This document shows positions 1,249 to 6,063 of a stretch of 40,974 bases of DNA, in pieces. The notes under the pieces are model-generated. The model was not told the origin of the DNA. It saw only the letters and a program-made list of their open reading frames with translations, and ran no database searches. Every line of letters starts with the position of its first letter. Within the stretch, counting starts at the first letter, position 1. This DNA is from Treponema sp. (GTDB taxonomy: Bacteria > Spirochaetota > Spirochaetia > Treponematales > Breznakiellaceae), in assembly GCA_031273265.1 (NCBI GenBank), contig JAISSH010000047.1, forward strand, positions 1-40,974, written 5' to 3'. Both the position numbers and the translations under genes were made by a program.

Positions 1249-3054
1249 ATGGCACAAACGCAATTTATAAGAAACTTTTGCATTATCGCGCACATCGATC
1301 ACGGCAAGTCAACGCTGGCTGACCGGCTCATTCAGAAAGCCAAACTCGTTGACGACCGCGACTTTCAGGATCAGATTCTCGACAACATGGATATTGAGAG
1401 GGAGCGCGGCATCACGATAAAGAGCCAGGCGGTGACGATCCCATACACCGGGGCGGACGGGAATGAATACACGCTCAATCTGGTTGACACCCCCGGCCAC
1501 GTTGACTTTAGTTACGAGGTGAGCAGAGCGATTAACTCCTGCGAAGGCGCGCTCCTTTTGGTGGACGCGACGCAAGGGGTGCAGGCGCAGACGCTTTCCA
1601 ACATGTACCTCGCCCTTGAACACAACCTTGAGATAGTGCCGGTAATCAACAAAATTGACATGCAGGCCGCCGATGTGCCGAGAGTGAAAAAACAGATCGA
1701 TAAAGATTTAGGGTTAGACTCTGAAACCGCGCTTTTGGTTTCCGCGCGTCAGGGCACGGGAATTGACGAACTTTTCGAGGCTATTGTAAAGTACATCCCT
1801 GCGCCGACAGGCGATCCAGCTTCCGCGTTACGCGCACTTATTTTTGACTGCCATTACGACCCTTACCGCGGAGTAGTGGTTCATCTGCGCCTTTTTGACG
1901 GAAAGATAAAAAAAGGGATGAAAATTTCCTTTATGCACAACAACTCGGTTTACGAAGTGGAAACCGCAGGCGTCTTTAAGCTCGCGTTAGTTGAAACTGG
2001 CGAACTGTCCGCTGGGGATGTAGGCTACATAATAGCAGGTATCAAAACCGTAAGCGATGTGCGCGTCGGCGACACTGTAACAGGTGCGGACAACCCCTGC
2101 CCTTCCCCATTGCCAGGTTTCCGTGAGGTGAAACCTGTTGTCTTTTCTTCAATATATCCCGTAGATTCCAACGACTACGAAGAATTACGAACCAGCATGG
2201 AAAAGCTCAAACTGAACGACGCTTCCCTGATTTACGAAAAAGATTCTTCCGCCGCCCTTGGCTTCGGTTTCCGTTGCGGTTTTTTGGGTCTTTTGCACCT
2301 TGAGGTTATTCAGGAACGGCTTGAGCGCGAATTCGATCAATCGGTAATTTTCACCGCCCCGTCAGTCAAATACAAGGTGCACATTCGTTCAGGCGATGAA
2401 GTCATGATTGACAACCCAATGGACTACCCCGACGAGGGCAGAATAGAAAGCGCCGAAGAACCGTACATTCGTGCTTCTGTAATTACGCCGACAGACTACT
2501 TGGGAAACATTATGACCCTCTGCCTTGAAAAAAGAGGCGTGCAAACCAACATGACATACCTCGACGAAAAGCGCGTCGAGCTGGTTTACGATATGCCCCT
2601 TTCAGAAGTGTTATTCGATTTTTACGACCGCCTGAAAAGCATCTCAAGAGGTTATGCGTCATTTGACTACGACATTTCCGGCTACAAACCGACAGAACTT
2701 GCCAAACTTGACATACTCCTTAACGGAAAGCCCGTTGACGCGCTTTCCCAGCTTGTGTTCAAAGGCAACGCCTACGAGCGCGCGCGAAAAGTCTGCGAAC
2801 GTCTGAGCGATGAAATTCCGCGCCAGCAGTTCAAAATCCCCATTCAAGGAGCAATAGGCAGTACGATAATCGCGCGCGAAACAGTGAACGCGCTCCGCAA
2901 GGACGTACTCGCCAAATGTTACGGCGGCGACATCACGCGCAAACGAAAACTCCTCGAAAAGCAGAAAGAAGGCAAGAAGCGCATGAAAATGGTCGGCGAC
3001 GTGGAGCTTCCGCAGAGCGCATTTTTGGCGGTGCTAAAATCGCGTGATGAGTGA
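1249..3054 (+). CDS. lepA: Elongation factor 4 (LepA)
   Basis: This is a full-length 601-residue translational GTPase of the LepA/EF4 family. All G motifs are present: AHIDHGKST (P-loop, near residue 14), [10 protein letters not shown] (switch I), DTPGHVDF (G3), NKID (G4) and VSAR (G5). Domains II and III, the EF-G V-like domain ([20 protein letters not shown]) and the LepA-specific C-terminal domain (ending near GEVELPQ-type [10 protein letters not shown]) follow. EF4 binds ribosomes and affects translocation and subunit biogenesis under stress. The gene appears monocistronic, starting almost at its promoter and ending just before the repeat region at 3061. Confidence 0.98.
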
Positions 3055-3069
3055 TTACAGGAGAAGAAT

Positions 3070-3110
3070 TTTTACCACGAACTTTCACGAACCAACACGA
3101 ACAAAAGAAA
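3070..3110 (+). repeat. Dispersed CACGAAC-type repeat, copy E
   Basis: The block TTTTACCACGAACTTTCACG continues with two more CACGAAC units and an AAAAG tail. It recurs almost identically at 4532-4572. Together with the dyad that follows each copy it forms a roughly 105-bp direct repeat (3070-3175 and 4532-4635) flanking the ATPase gene. Confidence 0.8.
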
Positions 3111-3137
3111 AGGGAAAACACGGAGGGAAACTTCCTT

Positions 3138-3175
3138 CTCGTATGATCATACAGTATACTGCATGTTTGTACGAG
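3138..3175 (+). repeat. 38-bp dyad element, copy A
   Basis: This is the first of four equally long elements with the plan CTCGTA, 8 nt, CARTAYAYTG, 8 nt, TACGAG. Here the core is CAGTATACTG, a perfect palindrome. A purine-rich GGGG follows the right arm. It lies exactly 60 bp upstream of copy B. Confidence 0.85.
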
Positions 3176-3180
3176 GGGTA

Positions 3181-3209
3181 TTGACAAAAGACCGACACTC
3201 GTATAAAAT
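3181..3209 (+). promoter_or_regulatory. Promoter of the DUF4143-type ATPase
   Basis: TTGACA (3181-3186) and TAAAAT (3204-3209) are 17 nt apart. The -10 lies inside the left half of dyad copy B, and the expected transcription start falls at the dyad core. A protein bound to the dyad would therefore block this promoter. None of the other three dyad copies has a comparable -35 box. Confidence 0.55.
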
Positions 3210-3235
3210 GACAGTATATTGTATTATTGTACGAG
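3198..3235 (+). repeat. 38-bp dyad element, copy B (operator-like)
   Basis: This copy has the core CAGTATATTG between CTCGTA and TACGAG arms. It overlaps the predicted -10 and transcription start of the ATPase gene, and its right arm runs into the GAGGGGG ribosome-binding site 8 nt before the ATG. It could act as a DNA operator. The right half of an RNA version could also influence ribosome access. Confidence 0.8.
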
Positions 3236-3243
3236 GGGGCTTT

Positions 3244-4461
3244 ATGGACATTGACAGAACAATCGCGACGGCAATAAAAAGGATTTCCAGGGGATTTCCC
3301 ATAATTTTACTGACCGGAATGAGGCAGATAGGAAAAACTTACCTCCTTGAAAAAATAAGGGAGCCGGGGCGCAAGTATGTTTCCCTTGATTTTTCCGATG
3401 ATCGCGAGCTTGCGAAAGAACACCCCGATCTCTTCCTGCAAAGGTATAAACCCCCAATTCTGATCGACGAAGTCCAATACGCGCCTGAATTATTCAACTA
3501 TATAAAAATTTATGTGGATACCCACAAACAGGACGGACTTTTCTGGCTGACAGGCTCGCAAAAATTCAGCCTAATGAAGGGTATTAGGGAATCTTTGGCT
3601 GGAAGGGTGGCTATTCTGGATATGCTGGGTTTTTCATACAGGGAAATAATTGGACAGCCAAAAAGCAAACCGTTTCTCCCTTCCAAAACAGTAAAATCAA
3701 CTCCCTCCAAAATAAAAAGATTGAAACTTCTTGATCTGTACAAAATTATCTGGCGCGGCTCCTATCCGCGTCTTGTGGTACACAATGGAAAAAACAGGGA
3801 AATATTTTACCGATCGTATCTTCAAACTTATATTGAGCGTGATATAAGGGATCATCAGGGTATAGATGACAGCGTAAAGTTTTATAAATTTATCCGCGCC
3901 GCGGCGGTTCGGACAGGAAATCTTCTTAATTACGCCGACCTCGCAAGAGATTCCGATATAGATGTTAGAACAGCGAAAACATGGCTCGCCGCGCTGGAGC
4001 GGTCGGGTTTGATCAAGCTTCTTTATCCCTACTATGTAAATGTCACCAAACGCCTGATTAAAACTCCCAAACTTTATTTCATGGATACCGGTCTCTGCGC
4101 TTTCTTATGCGGCATGGACACTCCCAAAAGCCTTGAAGCAGGTTACTTAAGCGGCTCGATTCTTGAAACATGGGCATTTATTGAAATTGTTAAAAGTTAT
4201 TGGCATAACGGGGAAGACCCTTCGATTTATTTTTACCGCGATGCCGACCAGCGTGAAATTGACTTTGTGATTGAGCGGAACATGACTCTTTTCCCCATAG
4301 AGGTAAAAAAAACGTCCGCTCCCACTGCGGAGAGCGCAAGACATTTCGCCCTGCTTGAAAGACTTAAAAAACCTGTAGGAGCCGGCGCTGTTCTTTGCCT
4401 GCGCTCCTCTCCCCTGCCCTTGAGTAAAAACGTGGTCGCTCTACCTGTTTGGAATGTTTGA
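3244..4461 (+). CDS. AAA+ ATPase with DUF4143 domain
   Basis: The chosen start at 3244 follows GAGGGGG and gives 405 residues. The longer ORF-track version would start inside dyad copy A. Walker A is GMRQIGKT (residues 25-32), Walker B is ILIDEVQ, and WLTGSQ is the sensor-type motif. An Arg-rich segment (LAGRVAIL) follows, then the C-terminal DUF4143 region containing LYFMDTGLCAFL and EIDFVIER, which resembles a nuclease-like strand motif. These proteins are abundant and repeatedly duplicated in bacteria and archaea; their cellular role is unclear. The gene is intact, has its own promoter, and is bracketed by dyad and direct repeats, which suggests a mobile or duplicated cassette. Confidence 0.88.
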   Translation: MDIDRTIATAIKRISRGFPIILLTGMRQIGKTYLLEKIREPGRKYVSLDFSDDRELAKEHPDLFLQRYKPPILIDEVQYAPELFNYIKIYVDTHKQDGLFWLTGSQKFSLMKGIRESLAGRVAILDMLGFSYREIIGQPKSKPFLPSKTVKSTPSKIKRLKLLDLYKIIWRGSYPRLVVHNGKNREIFYRSYLQTYIERDIRDHQGIDDSVKFYKFIRAAAVRTGNLLNYADLARDSDIDVRTAKTWLAALERSGLIKLLYPYYVNVTKRLIKTPKLYFMDTGLCAFLCGMDTPKSLEAGYLSGSILETWAFIEIVKSYWHNGEDPSIYFYRDADQREIDFVIERNMTLFPIEVKKTSAPTAESARHFALLERLKKPVGAGAVLCLRSSPLPLSKNVVALPVWNV

Positions 4462-4478
4462 AAAGGTGAAAATTTCCC

Positions 4479-4516
4479 CTCGTACAAAATGACAATACAT
4501 TGCATGATTGTACGAG
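4479..4516 (+). repeat. 38-bp dyad element, copy C
   Basis: This copy starts 18 nt after the ATPase stop codon. Its outer arms extend to a perfect 9-bp inverted repeat (CTCGTACAA and TTGTACGAG) around the core CAATACATTG. It is closer in sequence to copy D than to A or B. It has no T-run, so it does not look like a terminator. Confidence 0.85.
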
Positions 4517-4531
4517 AGGGAAAGAAGAATG

Positions 4532-4572
4532 TTTTACCACGAACTTTCACGAACCAACACGAACAAAAGAAA
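4532..4572 (+). repeat. Dispersed CACGAAC-type repeat, copy F
   Basis: This is an almost exact repetition of copy E at 3070-3110, including the flanking AGAAGAAT upstream. It sits between dyad copies C and D. Similar GTTCGTG/CACGAAC repeats are scattered through many environmental bacterial genomes. Confidence 0.8.
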
Positions 4573-4597
4573 GGGAAAAACAGAGGGGAAATTCCCC

Positions 4598-4635
4598 CTC
4601 GTACAAAATGACAATACATTGTATGATCGTACGAG
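4598..4635 (+). repeat. 38-bp dyad element, copy D
   Basis: The core is CAATACATTG with arms CTCGTA and TACGAG. GAAGGAAT and an ATG follow directly, the same layout that copy B has with the ATPase start. The reading frame after this ATG has no recognisable product, so copy D may once have led another gene. Confidence 0.85.
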
Positions 4636-4709
4636 AAGGAATATGAACCGCCCTTTGGTGGCGAAGCGTTTACAGTCCTGTGGCAAAGGGTGTACTTTAC
4701 AAATATTTT

Positions 4710-5721: not shown

Positions 5722-6063
5722 ATGACGATTAATGAACGTATCAAGGAAATACGGCATATTTTAAATATATCCCAGCGGGAATTTGCCCAAGCGGTTTATG
5801 TTTCCTATGGTTATTTATCAGAAATTGAAACAGGGCATAAGGAAGTAAAAGACCGTCTCATTCACTTAATTTCCAGCGCGTTTTCTGTAAACAAGCACTG
5901 GCTTCTGACCGGAAAGGGGCGGATGTTCAACAGCACGCCTAAGGAAAAAATGGAGAAGATGACAAGCCTTTTTAACGAGTTGTATCCTGAGTATCAGGAT
6001 TTTGTGTTAAGGCAGATTGACGAGCTTATTGAACTGCAGAATGTCAAGCATGGGAAAAAATGA
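5722..6063 (+). CDS. XRE-family transcriptional regulator
   Basis: The 113-residue protein has an N-terminal Cro/C1-type helix-turn-helix: ERIKEIRHILNISQREFAQAVYVS with the recognition helix region GYLSEIETGHKEV. The segment HWLLTGKGRMF is the common end of short phage-like or toxin-linked XRE repressors. The C-terminal helix (LFNELYPEYQDFVLRQIDELIEL) is probably a dimerisation element. It likely represses its own promoter and that of the divergent 56-residue gene. The start codon has only a weak GAAAG ahead of it. No phage genes surround it, so the true regulon is unknown. Confidence 0.85.
   Translation: MTINERIKEIRHILNISQREFAQAVYVSYGYLSEIETGHKEVKDRLIHLISSAFSVNKHWLLTGKGRMFNSTPKEKMEKMTSLFNELYPEYQDFVLRQIDELIELQNVKHGKK

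Follow-up and report, generated by a model that had tools for sequence, protein, structure and literature searches.

Palindromic elements at DUF4143 (PDC-S01) promoters are probable operators of the ATPases they precede

Introduction

A palindromic operator over its own promoter is carried by the CapW/BrxR WYL regulators, by the R-M C proteins and by the type II antitoxins, presumably for negative autoregulation. The DUF4143 ATPase genes described here resemble these systems in having a palindrome at their own promoter; unlike them, one DUF4143 chain appears to join a DNA reader, an ATPase switch and a nuclease-like domain. Orc1/Cdc6 proteins combine AAA+ and winged-helix domains and bind repeated sites beside their own gene, and ORC chains are among the fold matches of our DUF4143 model. 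The DUF4143 sites, however, belong to promoters rather than origins, and the chain continues with a PD-(D/E)XK-like domain. The STAND protein MalT and the archaeal ATPase PABY2304 share with the DUF4143 model an ATPase followed by a winged helix, a likeness at the domain level only; MalT binds DNA via another domain, and we know of no such palindrome design for either protein.

The protein studied here belongs to PDC-S01 (COG1373, DUF4143/AAA_14), a family described as an ATPase fused to PD-(D/E)XK (PMC12988326). With a reported tens of thousands of copies, PDC-S01 is described as the fourth commonest defence across prokaryotes, at candidate status, and has no known mechanism; validation by experiment is still pending for most such candidates, PDC-S01 included (PMC12988326). 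In rumen genomes it is reported to be the single locus found most often (PMC13356809), and a Thermus DUF4143 gene appears in an expression table (PMC4406477). In the open-access literature searched, we found no report of a DNA site, operator or regulation for DUF4143/PDC-S01.

Results

Four palindromes surround a DUF4143 gene in Treponema

The window is a 40,974-nucleotide stretch of Treponema sp. DNA (contig JAISSH010000047.1), in which the following features concern us.

1249..3054, + strand: lepA, upstream neighbour of the DUF4143 gene
3070..3129, + strand: block E, a dispersed repeat (ACCACGAAC..., 18 genome places), duplicated along with a palindrome
3138..3175, + strand: copy A, the other upstream palindrome, 60 bp ahead of B; relatives have tandem copies at 58-72 bp
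3181..3209, + strand: sigma70-like promoter, -35 TTGACA at 3181-3186, 17-nt spacer, -10 TAAAAT at 3204-3209
3198..3235, + strand: copy B, candidate palindromic operator over the -10 region and start site and into the ribosome-binding site; orthologues have a site at the same place
3244..4461, + strand: DUF4143 ATPase gene, 405 aa, with AAA_14/STAND-like ATPase, winged helix and PD-(D/E)XK-like domain; PDC-S01 match
3961..3969, + strand: codons for residues 240-242 (D, V, R), the recognition-helix N-terminus, predicted readers of half-site positions 13-15
4479..4516, + strand: copy C, palindrome 17 bp past the stop codon
4532..4591, + strand: block F, second copy of E
4598..4635, + strand: copy D, palindrome 119 bp from C, inside the second half of the composite repeat

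The four 38-bp palindromes (starting at 3138, 3198, 4479 and 4598) fit CTCGTA-N8-CARTAYAYTG-N8-TACGAG with 0 mismatches, and 100 dinucleotide shuffles of the window yielded 0 palindromes of this pattern; the four equal-length elements described in an earlier, sequence-only reading of this DNA are thus real. That reading had also placed copy B over the -10 and transcription start and in contact with the ribosome-binding site. The sequence agrees: the -10 TAAAAT sits within the left arm of copy B, a register found in many relatives, and the 3' end of the copy overlaps the ribosome-binding site GAGGGGG, just ahead of the ATG at 3244. A and B are spaced by 60 bp and C and D by 119 bp. Arm symmetry is imperfect in the window clade, where 13-15 of 19 pairs match. 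Far from being scattered genome-wide, the pattern is confined to this locus in the 2.0-Mb host genome, with no other occurrence when up to 3 mismatches are allowed.

The locus also holds a direct repeat (3070-3178 and about 4532-4638; about 83% identity across 115 bp), previously read as a unit of about 105 bp made of blocks E-A and F-D. The repeat stands, as a composite. The 33-42 bp at its front (ACCACGAAC...), which read ACCACGAACTTTCACGAACCAACACGAAC, belong to a distinct dispersed repeat found at 18 places in the host genome, most of them palindrome-free; we rejected the direct repeat as a single element when this front part turned out to be dispersed. The block E repeat is probably unrelated to the operator. 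Copies of the dispersed repeat (TTTTACCACGAACTTTCACGAACCAACACGAAC...) lie at window 3070-3102 and 4532-4564, and at loci L016-L031.

The DUF4143 protein

The window protein exceeds the curated Pfam cut-offs for both AAA_14 (7e-28, 97.7 bits, cut-off 27) and DUF4143 (1e-44, 152.4 bits, cut-off 28.1), and the PADLOC PDC-S01 model matches it at E 9e-105. No NCBIfam model matched the protein, no sequence homologue was found in the PDB at E 0.01, and the window showed no DNA similarity to plasmids. The winged helix occupies about residues 207-280. In the AlphaFold2 model (pLDDT 87) helix 241-254, which residue 241 starts, lies in a helix-turn-helix followed by a beta hairpin, and is the predicted recognition helix of the winged helix. 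The PD-(D/E)XK signature D...E-x-K is present, with its residues on beta strands in the model, and E338, D340, E353 and K355 are invariant or at least 90% conserved among 22 homologues; the domain appears to be nuclease-like. The best Foldseek matches of the whole model in the PDB are MalT and PABY2304 (8bob, 2qen), with further matches to STAND proteins, ORC and Apaf-1, and to VC1899 and Can2 for the nuclease-like part. Because global TM-scores are low (0.26-0.42), we take these matches as domain-level resemblance only.

Palindromes recur at DUF4143 promoters in many phyla

Palindromes were scored as the best in -130 to +20 of the gene start (match +1, mismatch -1), with a threshold of at least 8. 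In the full set of 254 DUF4143 genes, which covers Spirochaetota and many further bacterial phyla, a palindrome of 33-45 bp lies over the promoter in about 80%. The threshold was reached by 81% of 88 Spirochaetota genes versus 9% of 1727 local windows, by 81% of 75 genes from many phyla versus 9% of 1786 local windows, and by 79% of 91 further, held-out Spirochaetota genes versus 7% of 817 local windows. At the starts of other genes (n = 370) the figure was 16%, and at a score of at least 12 it was 4%, versus 40-48% of DUF4143 genes. About 20% of DUF4143 genes score below 8. Typically a gene has one such candidate operator, at its promoter; some have 2-3 in tandem, spaced by about 60 bp.

The palindromes of other DUF4143 genes have a similar length and the same place but other letters (for example CGTTTAATCTGGAATCAGATTCCAAATTAAACG, TTATGCTAATCTGCCAGTACACTGGACGATTAGCATAA and TTTCGTGGGATAATCCAAACTGCCACTTTGGATTATCCCACGAAA). 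Identical 38-bp letters occur only within a small clade whose proteins are about 72% identical or more. A single 38-bp motif conserved family-wide was rejected, since the letters vary from clade to clade; the feature that the family has in common is the architecture.

Among ten plasmid examples from cultured bacteria, a palindrome is present in Moraxella bovis, T. succinifaciens, Runella and Allochromatium, the Aliarcobacter gene has a short palindrome only, and no long palindrome was found at the genes of Thermus, S. meliloti, A. tumefaciens, Marinobacter and R. albus. The subfamilies without a long palindrome are distant (about 30-36% identity), so the rule covers a large subfamily, not every DUF4143 protein. 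Upstream of two of these distant genes (L373 and L377, on Marinobacter and Agrobacterium plasmids) there are repeated GACG-type words, such as GGACG/AGACG...GATAG, possibly a direct-repeat operator.

A promoter score of at least 10 was found in 36% of operator regions versus 3.4% of shuffles. Relative to the dyad, -10 positions cluster at -9 to -11 or at +9, and a third group has the -10 at +30, with the -35 inside the right arm. The operator thus keeps its link with the promoter in more than one register, a point against its being a simple artefact of the promoter. As expected of a winged-helix autoregulator, most of the DUF4143 genes examined have a candidate palindromic operator over their own promoter.

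Of 193 genes, 15 have further copies within 500 bp. Most of these copies are upstream, at distances of 58-72 or 119 bp; this 60-bp step and its double suggest that spaced copies may be bound cooperatively. A copy just past the stop codon occurs in 5 of the 193, so framing of the gene on both sides, which had been seen as part of the design, is not general; the window locus, which has two copies before the gene and two after it, is an extreme form of a tendency to extra copies that recurs elsewhere. At L076 a T-run follows the copy past the stop codon, giving it the look of an intrinsic terminator made out of the operator.

Sites outside intact genes

A pattern search of 100-149 genomes with five sequence classes returned 36 sites, of which 31 are at a DUF4143 gene or its remnant, supporting the suggestion that the element is dedicated to these genes; the remaining five have no DUF4143 gene within the stretch examined. 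The search of the host genome and its relatives that the sequence-only reading had proposed as a check thus found the pattern sites mostly at DUF4143 loci, and the outcomes which that reading had named as refuting it did not occur. Among 149 relatives the CTCGTA pattern itself occurs in three genomes besides the host. One of them, the same-genus genome G022, has a run of three copies spaced by 59-60 bp immediately ahead of a DUF4143 gene of 81% identity, which likewise comes directly after lepA; the other two (G017 and G031) have one orphan copy each.

At two loci (L364:1501-1781 and L365:1450-1626) the operator runs directly into what is left of a DUF4143 gene, its C-terminal part. Such fusions indicate that operators outlast decaying genes, internal deletions having spared the operator. 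Four of the orphan sites (L344, L345, L010 and L012) adjoin toxin-antitoxin or AbiE genes: PemK, AbiEii, PIN and PIN, respectively. We do not claim this association because the orphans number only five and gene decay is the simpler account. The fifth (L359:1501-1533) is an operator-like palindrome inside an apparently unbroken pyrK-like reading frame.

Among 30 lepA loci compared, the DUF4143 gene is shared by G022 only, and the others have unrelated sequence; no clean empty site was found among them, and the region after lepA is highly variable across the genus. An XRE-type regulator at window 5722-6063 has a relative directly after lepA in G023, and another XRE-type relative is found in G017, 3 kb from the orphan operator.

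Palindrome letters vary with the predicted recognition helix

Arm symmetry, observed at 77%, dropped to 43% (sd 1%) when right arms were swapped between genes, so the two arms change together. Operator similarity rises with protein identity. Paralogues within one genome have different palindromes, and they are no more alike in operator than other pairs of equal identity (only 16 such same-genome pairs).

In 108 operator-protein pairs of less than 80% identity, every protein column was compared with every half-site position by mutual information, standardised by shuffles and background-corrected. Among about 7200 residue-position pairs in this discovery set, the top pairs joined residue 240 to position 15, 241 to 13 and 242 to 14. 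With these pairs fixed in advance, 100 further loci were fetched (62 proteins), and among 7049 pairs 242-14 ranked 1, 241-13 ranked 3 and 240-15 ranked 4. The top five pooled pairs were 242-14, 242-15, 240-15, 241-13 and 231-12, and R270, a wing residue, couples to positions 5 and 7. The residues have preferred bases: H241 goes with G13 (0.87) and V or L241 with T13, while K242 or H242 goes with G14 (0.84 and 0.92) and P242 or R242 with A14, a code that looks chemically plausible. Among homologue pairs with an identity of 55% or more, a change of residue 242 goes with a different base at position 14 in 79% of comparisons; where residue 242 is the same, the figure is 29%. Shared ancestry inflates the coupling statistics; the contrasts between closer homologues keep the effect and remove ancestry incompletely. 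The expectation that recognition-helix residues set the operator bases is thus borne out as a statistical coupling that replicates in held-out loci, and the held-out ranks of the 240-242 pairs point to the DUF4143 protein as, very probably, the reader of its own operator.

Discussion

The palindromes, their position at the promoter, the co-variation of their arms, their specificity for DUF4143 genes and the recognition-helix coupling with its held-out replication are computed results, and the reading that we draw from them, at a probability of roughly 0.85, is that the palindromes are operators of the DUF4143 protein itself, through which it would recognise and autoregulate its own gene. In the mechanism that we propose, a symmetric dimer or higher oligomer would sit on the 37-38 bp palindrome through its winged helix. 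Residues 240-242, at the N-terminus of the recognition helix, would read positions 13-15 of the half-site, which lie about 5-7 bp away from the dyad; the outer arm, near positions 5-7, would probably be read by the wing in the region of R270. A dimeric or tetrameric reader had been suggested from the window alone; a symmetric protein is probable, and a tetramer finds no support in our data. Binding would most likely repress the gene's own promoter, since the -10 region and start site, or in other clades the -35, lie under the operator. Copy A, and probably also C and D, would be extra sites that strengthen or bridge binding at B. Physical binding, repression as its sign, the oligomeric state and the role of copies A, C and D are what we infer from the sequences.

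A change of nucleotide state would release the repression, which would place it under control of the ATP state, and the system may have a link to phage defence. It is tempting to speculate, though we consider it somewhat doubtful, that PDC-S01 is a single-gene regulator-effector, both repressor of its own promoter and carrier of a nuclease-like domain, in which a change of ATP state on infection would derepress the gene and free the nuclease.

Any dimeric factor could bind palindromes that overlap promoters, and another host regulator might read them and control DUF4143 genes, for example as a defence regulon. We consider this improbable: the palindrome sequence tracks the DUF4143 protein rather than the genome, paralogues in one genome differ, the strongest coupling is to the recognition helix of the DUF4143 protein, and each class is nearly confined to DUF4143 loci. 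The same helix coupling, which has no explanation in RNA, weighs against the idea that the palindromes work at the RNA level, as hairpins (terminator, attenuator or sequestration of the ribosome-binding site). Their symmetry, their nearness to the ribosome-binding site and the terminator-like downstream copy at L076 would suit hairpins, but in many genes the -10 is inside the left arm and the palindrome is therefore only partly transcribed, leaving this a very unlikely account.

The framing of the window gene by copies on both sides, the four orphans beside toxin-antitoxin or AbiE genes, the two sites joined to C-terminal remnants and the variability of the region after lepA might all be expected if the palindromes were ends or targets of a mobile element, or of an exchangeable cassette in which the DUF4143 nuclease cuts and genes are swapped with toxin-antitoxin modules. 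Sites at both ends, however, are not the usual arrangement (downstream copies in only 5 of 193 genes); the site keeps a fixed promoter register instead of marking element ends, the lepA loci compared include no clean empty site, and ordinary decay of DUF4143 genes in variable islands accounts for the remnants and orphans. We hold such an origin to be about as improbable as a host regulator. Least credible is conservation by common descent of the locus alone, without function, which the restriction of identical 38-bp letters to a small clade could suggest; against it, the symmetric architecture recurs with different letters in many phyla, the arms co-vary, and the pattern holds in held-out genes.

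If the DUF4143 protein does read its own operator, each copy would have a private one, and paralogues in one genome would be regulated separately and could be separated into independent regulatory units. The code would predict where each protein binds and permit specificity-swap and reporter tests, and the family may offer hundreds of natural protein-DNA pairs for studies of recognition. A self-operator with a legible residue-to-base code would make the obscure PDC-S01/DUF4143 family testable.
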